Made by a program: the position numbers and the translations under genes. A stretch of 64,000 nucleotides of DNA, from assembly GCF_014131695.1 (NCBI RefSeq), contig NZ_CP036346.1, positions 2,542,001 to 2,606,000 on the forward strand, in the 5' to 3' direction. The DNA is from Thomasclavelia ramosa DSM 1402 (lineage in GTDB: Bacteria; Bacillota_I; Bacilli_A; Erysipelotrichales; Coprobacillaceae). Positions 861 through 62,839 of this stretch are shown here, one piece after another. Within the stretch, counting starts at the first letter, position 1, and each line of letters begins with the position of its first letter. The notes beneath the pieces were generated by a model. It saw only the letters and a program-made list of their open reading frames with translations, ran no database searches and had not been told where the DNA came from.

Positions 861-1799
861 ATGAAAAAAATCTTAGAAGTTAAAAATATTAATAAAAGCT
901 ACCAGCATAACAAGGCTATCAATAACTTATCTTTCAACGTCTATGATGGTGAGATTCTTGGCTTATTAGGGCCTAATGGTGCTGGTAAAAGTACCACAAT
1001 CAATATTCTATCAACACTTTTAACCAGTGATACTGGCACCATTAACATATTTAACTTGCCCTTAACATCTCACTCTAATAAAATAAAAGCTCAACTCGGT
1101 ATTGTCCCTCAAGAAATTGCATTATACGAAGATATTTCAGCCTATCATAATGTAGCCTTTTTCGCTTCATTATACGGTGTTAAAAAGAAAGATTTACCAA
1201 AACAAGTAATGAATGCCTTAACTTTTGTCGGCTTATCCGATAAAAAAAATGATGATCCTAGAACCTTTAGCGGTGGAATGAAACGACGTTTAAATATAGC
1301 CTGTGCAATTGCCCATAATCCTAAATTATTAATTCTAGATGAACCAACCGTAGGAATTGATCCACAATCACGAAATTATATTTTATCCTCATTAAAGGAG
1401 TTAAAAGAAAAAGGTACAACTATTATTTATACGACCCATTATATGGAAGAAGTTGAAGAAATCGCTGATCGAATCGTTATTATGGATAGAGGCACTAAGA
1501 TCGCCGAAGGAACATTAAAAGAACTTTTAGCCAAATATAAAGACACTCTTATCTACACCATCTATGCTGATAATTTTCCAGCCGATCTAGCAATATCACT
1601 AAGTACTATCAATGGTGTTGAAGAGATCAAAACTAATGCAGATAATTTTAAAATCACAGTTTCTAAAAATTACGACGCATTAGATAAGATCATTATGCTT
1701 TTTGTTCACAAAAAATGTCATATTAATAAAATGGAAACAGAAGAAGGAAATTTAGAGATGGTATTTTTAGGTCTAACTGGGAAGAAGCTAAGGGATTGA
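861..1799 (+). CDS. ABC transporter ATP-binding protein
   Basis: 312 residues. Walker A is GPNGAGKST (residues 37-45), the signature is FSGGMKRRL, and Walker B is LLILDEPTVGIDP followed by an H-loop TTHYMEE. The roughly 90-residue C-terminal extension is typical of drug- or lantibiotic-type exporters that pair with ABC-2 permeases. AGGAGG sits 7 bases before the ATG. It should energise the two following membrane proteins, to which it is almost fused (2-base gap). Substrate is unknown. The operon lies between two tRNA-Gly copies and may be an acquired cassette. Confidence 0.9.
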   Translation: MKKILEVKNINKSYQHNKAINNLSFNVYDGEILGLLGPNGAGKSTTINILSTLLTSDTGTINIFNLPLTSHSNKIKAQLGIVPQEIALYEDISAYHNVAFFASLYGVKKKDLPKQVMNALTFVGLSDKKNDDPRTFSGGMKRRLNIACAIAHNPKLLILDEPTVGIDPQSRNYILSSLKELKEKGTTIIYTTHYMEEVEEIADRIVIMDRGTKIAEGTLKELLAKYKDTLIYTIYADNFPADLAISLSTINGVEEIKTNADNFKITVSKNYDALDKIIMLFVHKKCHINKMETEEGNLEMVFLGLTGKKLRD

Positions 1800-3556: not shown

Positions 3557-3630
3557 TGGAGCGGGTGATGGGAATCGAACCCACGTAGTCAGCTTGGAAG
3601 GCTGAAGTTCTACCATTGAACTACACCCGC
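3557..3630 (-). tRNA. tRNA-Gly (anticodon TCC), copy 2
   Basis: Identical in sequence to the gene at 606-679, with encoded CCA. It is the last gene of the array transcribed from 4214 downwards. Confidence 0.95.
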
Positions 3631-3635
3631 AAAAA

Positions 3636-3724
3636 TGGTGCCCAGGGCCGGAATCGAACCGGCACGGATTTTAAGGTCCGCAGGATTTTAAGTCCTGTGC
3701 GTCTACCAGTTTCGCCACCTGGGC
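3636..3724 (-). tRNA. tRNA-Leu (anticodon TAA)
   Basis: 89-nt class II cloverleaf: acceptor GCCCAGG/CCTGGGC, D-loop CTGGTAGACGC, anticodon loop CTTAAAA (TAA), a long variable arm and encoded CCA. Confidence 0.95.
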
Positions 3725-3743
3725 GTGGCTATAAAAATTTAAA

Positions 3744-3819
3744 TGGTGACCCGCAGGCGATTCGAACGCCTGACCCTCTGATTAAAAGTCAGATGCTCTA
3801 CCAGCTGAGCTAGCGGGTC
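3744..3819 (-). tRNA. tRNA-Lys (anticodon TTT)
   Basis: 76-nt cloverleaf with acceptor GACCCGC/GCGGGTC, anticodon loop CTTTTAA and T-arm GTTCGAATC; CCA is encoded. Confidence 0.95.
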
Positions 3820-3827
3820 ATTATTAA

Positions 3828-3903
3828 TGGCTGGGGTACCTGGATTCGAACCAGGGAGATGACAGAGTCAAAGTCTGTTGCCTTACCGCTTGGCTATACC
3901 CCA
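3828..3903 (-). tRNA. tRNA-Gln (anticodon TTG)
   Basis: 76-nt cloverleaf with acceptor TGGGGTA/TACCCCA, anticodon loop CTTTGAC and encoded CCA. The U1-A72 pair is characteristic of tRNA-Gln. Confidence 0.95.
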
Positions 3904-3908
3904 ATGAA

Positions 3909-3991
3909 TGGTGGAGGAGGGCGGATTCGAACCACCGAACCAAAGGAACTGAGTTACAGTCAGCCGCGTTTAGCCACTTCGCTACTCCTCC
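3909..3991 (-). tRNA. tRNA-Tyr (anticodon GTA)
   Basis: 83-nt class II cloverleaf with acceptor GGAGGAG/CTCCTCC, anticodon loop CTGTAAC, long variable arm and encoded CCA. Confidence 0.95.
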
Positions 3992-3995
3992 ATCA

Positions 3996-4071
<76 letters not shown>

Positions 4072-4086
4072 CTATTTTATTTTAAA

Positions 4087-4162
4087 TGGTGGAGGTTAAC
4101 GGGCTCGAACCGCTGACCCTCTGCTTGTAAGGCAGATGCTCTCCCAACTGAGCTAAACCTCC
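4087..4162 (-). tRNA. tRNA-Val (anticodon TAC)
   Basis: 76-nt cloverleaf with acceptor GGAGGTT/AACCTCC, anticodon loop CTTACAA and encoded CCA. It is the first gene of the array. Confidence 0.95.
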
Positions 4163-60736: not shown

Positions 60737-60756
60737 AAAAAGGTTAAAACCTTTTT
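60737..60756 (-). terminator. Terminator of the RpiR gene
   Basis: AAAAAGGTT/AACCTTTTT with a 2-base loop; overlaps the stop codon. Termination may be incomplete ahead of the fumarase genes. Confidence 0.7.
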
Positions 60757-61570
60757 AGATAATTTTTTCCTGAATTCCTGGATAATATAAAGAATAATAT
60801 CGCAGTGACATCAATTCAACTGCTGTTAATAACGTATGTTTACCAATCTTTCGCTGTTCGCTATCACCTAATACAATCGTATAATTAACGTTTATTCCAA
60901 TATCTATCCCTGGATTATTTGTCATTAAAACAACCTTACATTTTGATTTCTTTAAATACTGTAAAACTTTCGAATTACTCCGTGCATAAAATCCATTTAC
61001 TGTCACAATAATTGCAACACTATTTTCATCCATCAAACGCGCACAATCAATCTGACGTTCTGTTTCCATATATGCCATTGTAAACTTTTCCAGCATTAGT
61101 AAATCAGTTTGAAAATGCAACGCTGCAGAATGAGAAAACTGAGTTCCAAAAAAAGCTACTGAATCACTATCATGAATAGCCTGTAGAACTTTATCAATCA
61201 CATTCCAGTCTAACCGCTGTGACAATTTTGAAATAGCATCACATACTTGATCACTATAATATTTAGTACATTCTTGAGGTTTATCTTTCATCATGTCCAA
61301 AGGAACATTAATTAAATTATTAAACTTTTTGCTATCTGAAGCAAATGAAGAACATTCTTGTTTTAAATGAGCATAATTTTCATATCCTAAAGCACGACAA
61401 AAACGTGAAATCGTTGCCGGGGATACATAACATTCTTTAGCAAGCTGACTAATTCCCATTTTGGCCACTTTCGAAAAATTATGAGCCATATACCAGGCAA
61501 TATTATAATTTGTATCAGCTTCACTAGCTGTATCTAAAAAGATAATTAAACGATAAAATAAGCTTTTCAT
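60755..61570 (-). CDS. RpiR-family regulator
   Basis: 271 residues from ATG 61570, which has GGAGG 7 bases upstream. HTH at about 1-80 with MGISQLAKECYVSPATISRF and a SIS domain (about 115-260) with FFGTQFSHSAALHFQTDLLM. Less like the pair at 25007-26520 and probably of different effector. It precedes the fumarase genes and follows the candidate small RNA, which lies on the opposite strand within its upstream region. Confidence 0.88.
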   Translation of the reverse strand: MKSLFYRLIIFLDTASEADTNYNIAWYMAHNFSKVAKMGISQLAKECYVSPATISRFCRALGYENYAHLKQECSSFASDSKKFNNLINVPLDMMKDKPQECTKYYSDQVCDAISKLSQRLDWNVIDKVLQAIHDSDSVAFFGTQFSHSAALHFQTDLLMLEKFTMAYMETERQIDCARLMDENSVAIIVTVNGFYARSNSKVLQYLKKSKCKVVLMTNNPGIDIGINVNYTIVLGDSEQRKIGKHTLLTAVELMSLRYYSLYYPGIQEKII

Positions 61571-61648
61571 CCTCATTCCTCCACTTATGTGTATTATACA
61601 CTATATTTCGCCATTTTAAAATAGCTCGATATCTATCCGAACGAATAA

Positions 61649-61677
61649 TTATCACATATTTTAAGATATTCTATATA
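61649..61677 (+). promoter_or_regulatory. Possible promoter of the small RNA
   Basis: TTATCA, exactly 17 bases, TATATA, predicting a start near 61684, immediately before the first hairpin. A TATAAT at 61745-61750 is an alternative but lies inside hairpin 2. Confidence 0.5.
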
Positions 61678-61683
61678 CATTTT

Positions 61684-61861
61684 CACCATTGTTTAGTTAT
61701 ATACTAACAATGTAGTCAAAAGAAATATTCGATTTTCCCTTCAATATAATGACTACAAACAATATATAAAGATATCCTTCCCTGATATCATGTATTATTA
61801 GTATCCTTTCCCTGATAACTAATAATAAAAGCGACAAGTGATTTCCCCACTTGTCGTTTTT
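61684..61861 (+). ncRNA. Candidate small RNA with four UUCCC-loop hairpins
   Basis: Five consecutive hairpins are visible. H1 61687-61712: CATTGTTTAGT/ACTAACAATG, loop TATAT. H2 61711-61757: TGTAGTCA/TGACTACA enclosing ATATTCGA/TTCAATAT, loop TTTTCCC. H3 61771-61789: GATATC/GATATC, loop CTTCCCT. H4 61795-61825: TTATTAGTATC/GATAACTAATAA (one bulge), loop CTTTCCCT. H5 61832-61856: CGACAAGTG/CACTTGTCG, loop ATTTCCC, then TTTTT. The stems are unrelated to each other, yet four loops carry UUCCC, which is complementary to Shine-Dalgarno-type GGGAA/GGAGG sequences. No coding frame fits. This is the pattern of C-rich-loop regulatory RNAs; the strand is supported by the U tract after H5. Confidence 0.65.
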
Positions 61862-61867
61862 CTGTTT

Positions 61868-62839
61868 CTATAAAATTTGACTATAAACACGTAAAACGTT
61901 CTTATAAAAAACTTTCTCAATTTCATTTTCACTAAAGCCAGCTTCCTGCAGTGCAGCAGCTAATTGGGGCATCATCGAAGCATCAGCTAATTCAAGGTTT
62001 TGATCAATACCATCAAAATCACTACCTAAGCCAACATAATCTATCCCCACCAGTTCCTTAATATATAAAATATGTTTAACCATATCTTCAATACATGAAC
62101 GCATCCCGCCATGACTCGATGGTTTTAAGAAATCTCCGCAAAAATTAATTCCCATGACGCCATTACGTTTCGCTAACTGTTTGATCATATCATCAGACAT
62201 ATTTCGAGCAACTCCGCAAACGCTACGAGCATTACTATGTGATGCAACAAACGGTTTTGTCGTATATTTTAATACATCATAAAATCCCGCATCACTCAAA
62301 TGTGAAACATCAATAATGATTCCCAACCGCTCCATTTCCTTGACATAAGCAATCCCAAAATCAGTTAATCCATCTTCTGTATTTAAATGATATAAATCTT
62401 TAAATTCCTTAGTACTAATCAAATTAGGATAACCTATTCCGTTAGGATGATTCCAAGTTAAAGTAATCATCCTAACGCCTAGACGATAATAATTACGTAA
62501 GATTGCAAGATCATTATTTACGACTGCCCCTTCTTCCAATGTAAGCATCGCTGACATTAGACCATTTTTTTGATTATTAAGAATATCTTCATAACTATAT
62601 ACTGGTTTAATCAGCTCAGGACTTTTTTCTAGTTCTGTATAATATAGATCAATTAATCGCTGTGCCTTTGTTAGTGGATCAAGATGATCACTTAAGTTTA
62701 CAAACATCGCAAAGTTTTGCAACAAATAATCACCTTTAACCATTTTCTTTAAATCAATATTAAAATCATTTTTTGATAAACAGCCACCTTCATCATAAAG
62801 CCGCAAGATGGTATCACAATGCATATCAACAACTTTCAT
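61868..62839 (-). CDS. Membrane-dipeptidase-family (M19) dipeptidase
   Basis: 323 residues. Zinc ligands and signatures: VVDMHCDTI (HxD, residues 3-11), TLEEGAVV (Glu), VDVSHLSDAGF (His) and SHSNARSVCGVARNMSD (His), then GLGSDFDGID near the C-terminus. It cleaves dipeptides, including D-amino-acid ones. No signal peptide, so it is cytosolic. Operon with DegV (11-base gap) and the small protein upstream. Confidence 0.94.
   Translation of the reverse strand: MKVVDMHCDTILRLYDEGGCLSKNDFNIDLKKMVKGDYLLQNFAMFVNLSDHLDPLTKAQRLIDLYYTELEKSPELIKPVYSYEDILNNQKNGLMSAMLTLEEGAVVNNDLAILRNYYRLGVRMITLTWNHPNGIGYPNLISTKEFKDLYHLNTEDGLTDFGIAYVKEMERLGIIIDVSHLSDAGFYDVLKYTTKPFVASHSNARSVCGVARNMSDDMIKQLAKRNGVMGINFCGDFLKPSSHGGMRSCIEDMVKHILYIKELVGIDYVGLGSDFDGIDQNLELADASMMPQLAAALQEAGFSENEIEKVFYKNVLRVYSQIL

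Follow-up and report, generated by a model that had tools for sequence, protein, structure and literature searches.

The stretch between an RpiR-family regulator gene and an M19 dipeptidase gene at positions 61684-61861 of the window (the whole 64,000-nucleotide piece of Thomasclavelia ramosa DSM 1402 DNA that was analysed) raises the question of whether it encodes a small RNA (sRNA) and, if so, what the UUCCC repeated in its loops is for. As the original prediction had described, the minimum free energy (MFE) fold of the plus strand consisted of five hairpins; hairpins 2 to 5 each had UUCCC in the loop, and the fifth was an intrinsic terminator with a T-tract. This fold had a free energy of -43.4 kcal/mol (z = -8.4), a stability matched by none of 200 shuffled sequences. 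Among 1500 dinucleotide shuffles that were folded identically, none had more than two UUCCC hairpin loops and 1411 had none at all, versus four in the real sequence; when uninterrupted stems only were counted, the real sequence had two, a number reached by 4 of 5000 shuffles. In a 0.93-Mb genome sample searched on both strands, no other site had four TTCCC inside 150 nt.

Table 1. Features of the locus and further members in the same genome. Positions are those of the window, except for the three own-genome members.
Feature	Position	Strand	Description and basis
Predicted small RNA gene	61712..61861	+	About 150 nt, three UCCC hairpins and a UCCC-looped terminator; fold, conservation, covariance matches, covariation
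Hairpin 1	61688..61711	+	Inverted repeat over the -10 box, without UUCCC; not kept as a hairpin by several relatives
Hairpin 2	61712..61756	+	GUAGUCA/UGACUAC stem, UUUUCCCUUC loop; fold, conservation, covariation
Hairpin 2 loop	61733-61739	+	TTTTCCC; MFE fold
Hairpin 3	61771..61789	+	GATATC-CTTCCCT-GATATC; fold, genus conservation
Hairpin 3 loop	61777-61783	+	CTTCCCT; MFE fold
Hairpin 4	61793..61827	+	Loop CTTTCCCT; fold, genus conservation, comparison with other genera
Hairpin 4 loop	61806-61813	+	CTTTCCCT; MFE fold, loop invariant in the genus
Intrinsic terminator hairpin	61828..61861	+	ATTTCCC loop and T-tract
Terminator loop	61841-61847	+	ATTTCCC; MFE fold
Predicted -10 box	61700..61705	+	TATACT, 6-7 nt before GUAGUC across the family
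Conserved upstream box	61652..61674	+	Starts with TCACAT; distance to the downstream GUAGUC 60-61 bp in syntenic copies; putative binding site of an activator
Divergent RpiR-family regulator gene	60755..61576	-	PF01418, 9e-11; synteny marker, adjoins the sRNA in other genera too
Convergent M19 membrane dipeptidase gene	61868..62839	-	PF01244; synteny marker
Own-genome sRNA member	C1:29079-29207	-	Covariance search
Own-genome sRNA member	234960-235081	+	Covariance search
Own-genome sRNA member	239722-239834	+	Covariance search

The hairpins that carry the loops had been called unrelated. The four UUCCC loops are real, but hairpins 3 and 4 are related to each other: their tips (TATCCTTCCCTGATA versus TATCCTTTCCCTGATA) differ by a single T, and TATCCTT(T)CCCTGATA is common to both. 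Because of this common tip, and because hairpin 4 is absent from the short form of the RNA in other genera, hairpin 4 is probably an internal duplication. The counterpart of hairpin 3 in those genera is GATATCCTTTCCCAAACTGATATC, and hairpin 2 is the part of the element that is best shared across the family. The first hairpin had been counted as part of the RNA. All five hairpins do fold, but hairpin 1 overlaps the likely -10 box, and G036, G039, G041 and G042b do not keep it as a hairpin. In nearly all copies TATACT or a variant of it lies 6-7 nt 5' of GUAGUC, and this fixed distance suggests that the RNA starts near 61711-61712 and that hairpin 1 probably belongs to the promoter DNA and not to the RNA.

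The box starting with TCACAT was found 50 bp before GUAGUC in two divergent copies, and AACATA(A)TTT occurs about 81 bp upstream in several Thomasclavelia paralogues; we infer that the two boxes are the same site. As the spacings differ by near 10 and 21 bp, that is by whole helical turns, the TCACAT box may be the site of an activator. The TCACAT site of the window was the best match in the genome sample to a matrix whose training included that site.

Each of the nine Thomasclavelia genomes had a conserved copy of the element in the interval flanked by rpiR and the M19 dipeptidase gene. A genus covariance model built from it (R1) detected a shorter form of about 115-130 nt across the Coprobacillaceae, and a second model built from this short form (R2) reached E-values as low as 7e-24 and revealed further copies in Thomasclavelia genomes. 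The structure search over relatives that had been proposed as a check was thereby productive, with positives for R1 and R2 in about 30 of 43 genomes and in 12 of the 20 genera of the family, where the relatives of Thomasclavelia include Massilimicrobiota, Candidatus Stoquefichus, Longibaculum and Faecalibacillus. Of 346 genomes drawn from across the class, only Coprobacillaceae reached an E-value of 0.001 or lower. Weak matches in family f2 (G140, G267, G214 and G239) were without the GUAGUC/UCCC layout and were taken as chance, and no clear sRNA divergent from rpiR was seen in Eggerthia, Kandleria, Sharpea and Beduini. The proposed comparison with Rfam, in which permissive cut-offs were also used, gave no match for the window element or for 16 homologue loci (none at gathering), and the plasmid collection held no match to the element. 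The sRNA family is uncatalogued.

Outside Thomasclavelia the syntenic sRNA gene occurred in about nine other genera, with the M19 dipeptidase gene usually adjoining, and it was divergent from rpiR in g1, g2, g4, g6, g12, g16, g17, g18 and g20 and likewise in Faecalibacillus. In several other genera (L078, L079, L080, L081 and others), though not in Thomasclavelia, a small lipoprotein gene separates the sRNA from rpiR. Elsewhere in the window, eight tRNA genes are located on the minus strand at 609-679 and 3560-4162, seven of them in one cluster. The own genome (G000) holds at least four members of the sRNA family, and copies stand as a tandem pair in G042 and as three tandem copies in G026. 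The latter (L041, around 1197-1640, minus strand) are near-identical, have a spacing of 165 bp, lie downstream of tatD and have the TCACAT box at a spacing of 50, not 60.

In an alignment of 25 homologues fitted to R2, which leans toward its own model, 96.3% of the cells were paired and both sides had changed in 18 of 28 pairs, versus 33-50% of cells and 5-8 pairs in controls with slid partners. The genus MAFFT alignment, which is independent of the model, contained 16 G-U and 5 A-C cells, and the A9 alignment 21 and 6, respectively. Since an A-C cell would read as G-U on the other strand, the excess of G-U cells favours the plus strand and supports the predicted plus-strand sRNA. On these comparative data, the existence of the sRNA gene and its strand are well supported.

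The loops of hairpins 2 and 4 were nearly invariant in the genus, while the UCCC of hairpin 3 was lost in three genomes (G037, G038 and G040) and the terminator loop was without UCCC in the copies of two relatives (G039 and G042b). In Faecalibacillus the stems are very different (GUAGAAAG/CUUUCUAC and AUUCUUAU/AUAAGAAU), and UCCC is still unpaired (CAUAUUCCCUCUA and CCUCCC). All 11 orthologues that were folded had 2-4 wholly unpaired UCCC per RNA, versus shuffle means of 0.3-1.0, and the window element had four. Such retention of unpaired UCCC in orthologues and paralogues despite stem change, even wholesale, together with the strong covariation, supports the earlier proposal that the loops are under selection.

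As for its function, we consider it probable that the element is a trans-acting, free-standing and multivalent sRNA that blocks mRNA starts via its redundant UCCC loops, independently of Hfq. Transcription of the plus strand would begin from the promoter at about 61700 and end at the terminator (61828-61861), and any one of the UCCC loops would serve as a seed for pairing with G-rich stretches (GGGA, GGGAAG) close to start codons. In a limited set of mRNAs, ribosome loading would then be blocked or decay triggered without Hfq, and an activator bound to the upstream TCACAT box may induce the paralogues and tandem copies jointly. Hfq (PF17209) was absent from all nine Thomasclavelia genomes, and CsrA (PF02599) was absent from the own genome with the search controls being positive. 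The Faecalibacillus copies, with their stems rewritten and their UCCC loops kept, are a natural experiment on loop-based targeting in a group where neither Hfq (nine Thomasclavelia genomes) nor CsrA (own genome) was found. Among the mechanisms considered, the proposed pairing with mRNA starts ranks as the most probable; the proposal draws on analogy and on loop conservation, because the start-region statistics and the target searches gave no support.

These statistics, obtained from a 0.46-Mb genome sample that included the window, weakened the idea that UUCCC is a complement of Shine-Dalgarno sequences. The Shine-Dalgarno sequence of the genome was AGGAGG (64 of 362 ORFs), and GGGAA was found upstream of ATG in 12 of the 362, as the rarest of its 10 permutations. 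Pairing of the loops with start regions reached -9.30 kcal/mol versus -9.37 +/- 0.49 kcal/mol for shuffled loops of the same composition. Start regions did pair with the loops more strongly than gene bodies, and likewise with the shuffled loops. A generic anti-Shine-Dalgarno role is not supported, as GGGAA was not enriched before ATG and shuffled CU-rich loops paired equally well. In view of this lack of a general start-region preference, any targets would be a limited set of mRNAs and not mRNAs at large.

No conserved target with long complementarity was found in the target searches. One conserved target that would match UUCAUGAUAUCCUUUCCC (with the complement GGGAAAGGA-UAUC-AUG-AA) was considered and rejected, as the non-self matches were mostly inside coding regions. 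The start region of the fumarase gene was also set aside, since GGAAGGA in the window is GAAAGGA or GAGAGGA in relatives and the pairing is not kept. In the genus-wide search for AGGGAARG-ATG, the recurrent matches inspected were rplD and a lysyl-tRNA-synthetase-like frame. The chromate-transporter genes of G000, with AGGGAAGG and AGGGAAAG upstream of their starts, are no more than a lead as candidate targets; in L264 (C1:2179900-2181300) two adjacent chromate-transporter-like genes have AGGGAARG before both start codons.

The main rival to mRNA pairing, which we regard as unlikely, is an RNA whose CU-rich loops bind and titrate an RNA-binding protein, e.g. a cold-shock or KH-domain protein, in the manner of CsrB/CsrA. 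Repeated identical loops on differing stems are the signature of such a sponge too, and the missing enrichment of loop complements at start regions would agree with it, as would the short form, in which the stem and linker sequences are also highly conserved, as if contacted. However, to our knowledge no CU-loop protein sponge of such kind has been described in the Firmicutes. Moreover, the flanks of UCCC vary between copies, and UCCC loops are described as proven target-binding motifs that pair with mRNA in several Gram-positive sRNAs, namely RNAIII, RsaE, SprD, FsrA and LhrC (PMC4132741).

Considerably less probable is a cis-acting element, that is an antisense or 3'-end RNA whose control is confined to the convergent dipeptidase mRNA or to the divergent rpiR. 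The synteny with both genes across genera would fit such an element, but paralogues with loops of the same kind adjoin unrelated genes (FecCD-type ABC transporter, tatD, MATE and tadA), the dipeptidase side of the sRNA has a different neighbour in G022, and the dipeptidase coding region and the window RNA do not overlap. In several Thomasclavelia, as read from translations, a paralogue follows an operon of a FecCD-type permease and an ATPase. At L116 (G000), L072, L074, L075 and L120 it stands directly after this iron-type ABC transporter operon, mostly before tatD, a position hinting at a metal link.

It is scarcely credible that the minus strand acts by binding CsrA through GGGAA loops in a dipeptidase read-through RNA or, as had been suggested originally, in the rpiR leader: this strand also folds and the terminator hairpin is weakly bidirectional, but the own genome lacks CsrA, the wobbles favour the plus strand, and the latter comes with a conserved -10 box of its own and with tandem copies. 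In addition, rpiR is separated from the element by its predicted promoter (TTTAAA-16-TATAAT, 61620-61593), and its mRNA need therefore not include the element. Over the -10 box of this promoter, at 61589-61602 on the minus strand, lies the palindrome-like GTGTATTATACAC, which is kept in Thomasclavelia, recognisable in Faecalibacillus and perhaps an RpiR operator.

A wider version of the mRNA-pairing reading, which we put forward only tentatively and with some doubt, is a family-wide regulon of UCCC-loop sRNAs in Hfq-less gut Erysipelotrichia, in which one activator would drive an additive post-transcriptional switch of a specific gene set via a GGGA-type code. Several copies per genome and boxes about 50, 60 and 81 bp upstream, whole helical turns apart, belong to this reading, and the GGGA-type code would avoid the bulk AGGAGG Shine-Dalgarno sites. 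The comparative data indicate that the element is a real sRNA gene and represents a new sRNA family of a known functional kind. This provides a conserved sRNA family, with covariance models, in a gut-bacterial clade on which our literature searches turned up no sRNA study.

Among the known systems, RsaE/RoxS is a Firmicutes sRNA that binds start regions through a C-rich seed. The element is likewise a predicted Firmicutes sRNA with a C-rich seed, whereas no Rfam match and no shared structure were found. IsrR relies on C-rich regions, with no shared chaperone involved, and IsrR and FsrA resemble the element in having C-rich loops on two or three hairpins and a terminator (PMC9410917). Further likenesses are that one paralogue locus follows an iron-type ABC transporter operon and that a neighbouring operon encodes a PF05681-type fumarase. 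However, the IsrR promoter has Fur boxes (PMC9410917) whereas no conserved Fur-like palindrome was seen by eye in the upstream regions of the element; there was no covariance match to IsrR or FsrA, and the synteny differs.

LhrC of Listeria is multicopy, carries UCCC redundantly at three sites (a loop, a linker and the loop of the terminator), and does not need Hfq for its effect on lapB (PMC4132741). The likeness to LhrC noted originally is apt in anatomy, the element being multicopy with redundant UCCC sites. The differences are that cmscan of 61500-62000 gave no covariance match at E up to 10, that UCCC has a UUCCC context in the element and a CUCCC context in LhrC, and that stems and synteny differ. 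The csRNAs of streptococci, several similar ones per genome and some of them duplicated, are driven by CiaR and contain stretches complementary to ribosome-binding sites (PMC8186281). The element resembles them in its similar and partly duplicated copies and in the single activator proposed for it. In contrast to csRNAs, it has its seeds in hairpin loops and the TCACAT box at 60 bp, and there was no sequence match; the CiaR direct repeat TTTAAG-N5-TTTAAG was not found in the upstream regions of 39 sRNA copies, some of which had only a single TTTAAG-like half-site. The tandem and multicopy members point to the pattern of LhrC and the csRNAs, which bind mRNA starts through UCCC or anti-RBS sites (PMC4132741; PMC8186281). 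In our best model, the element would work like LhrC or the csRNAs, yet stand outside both families.
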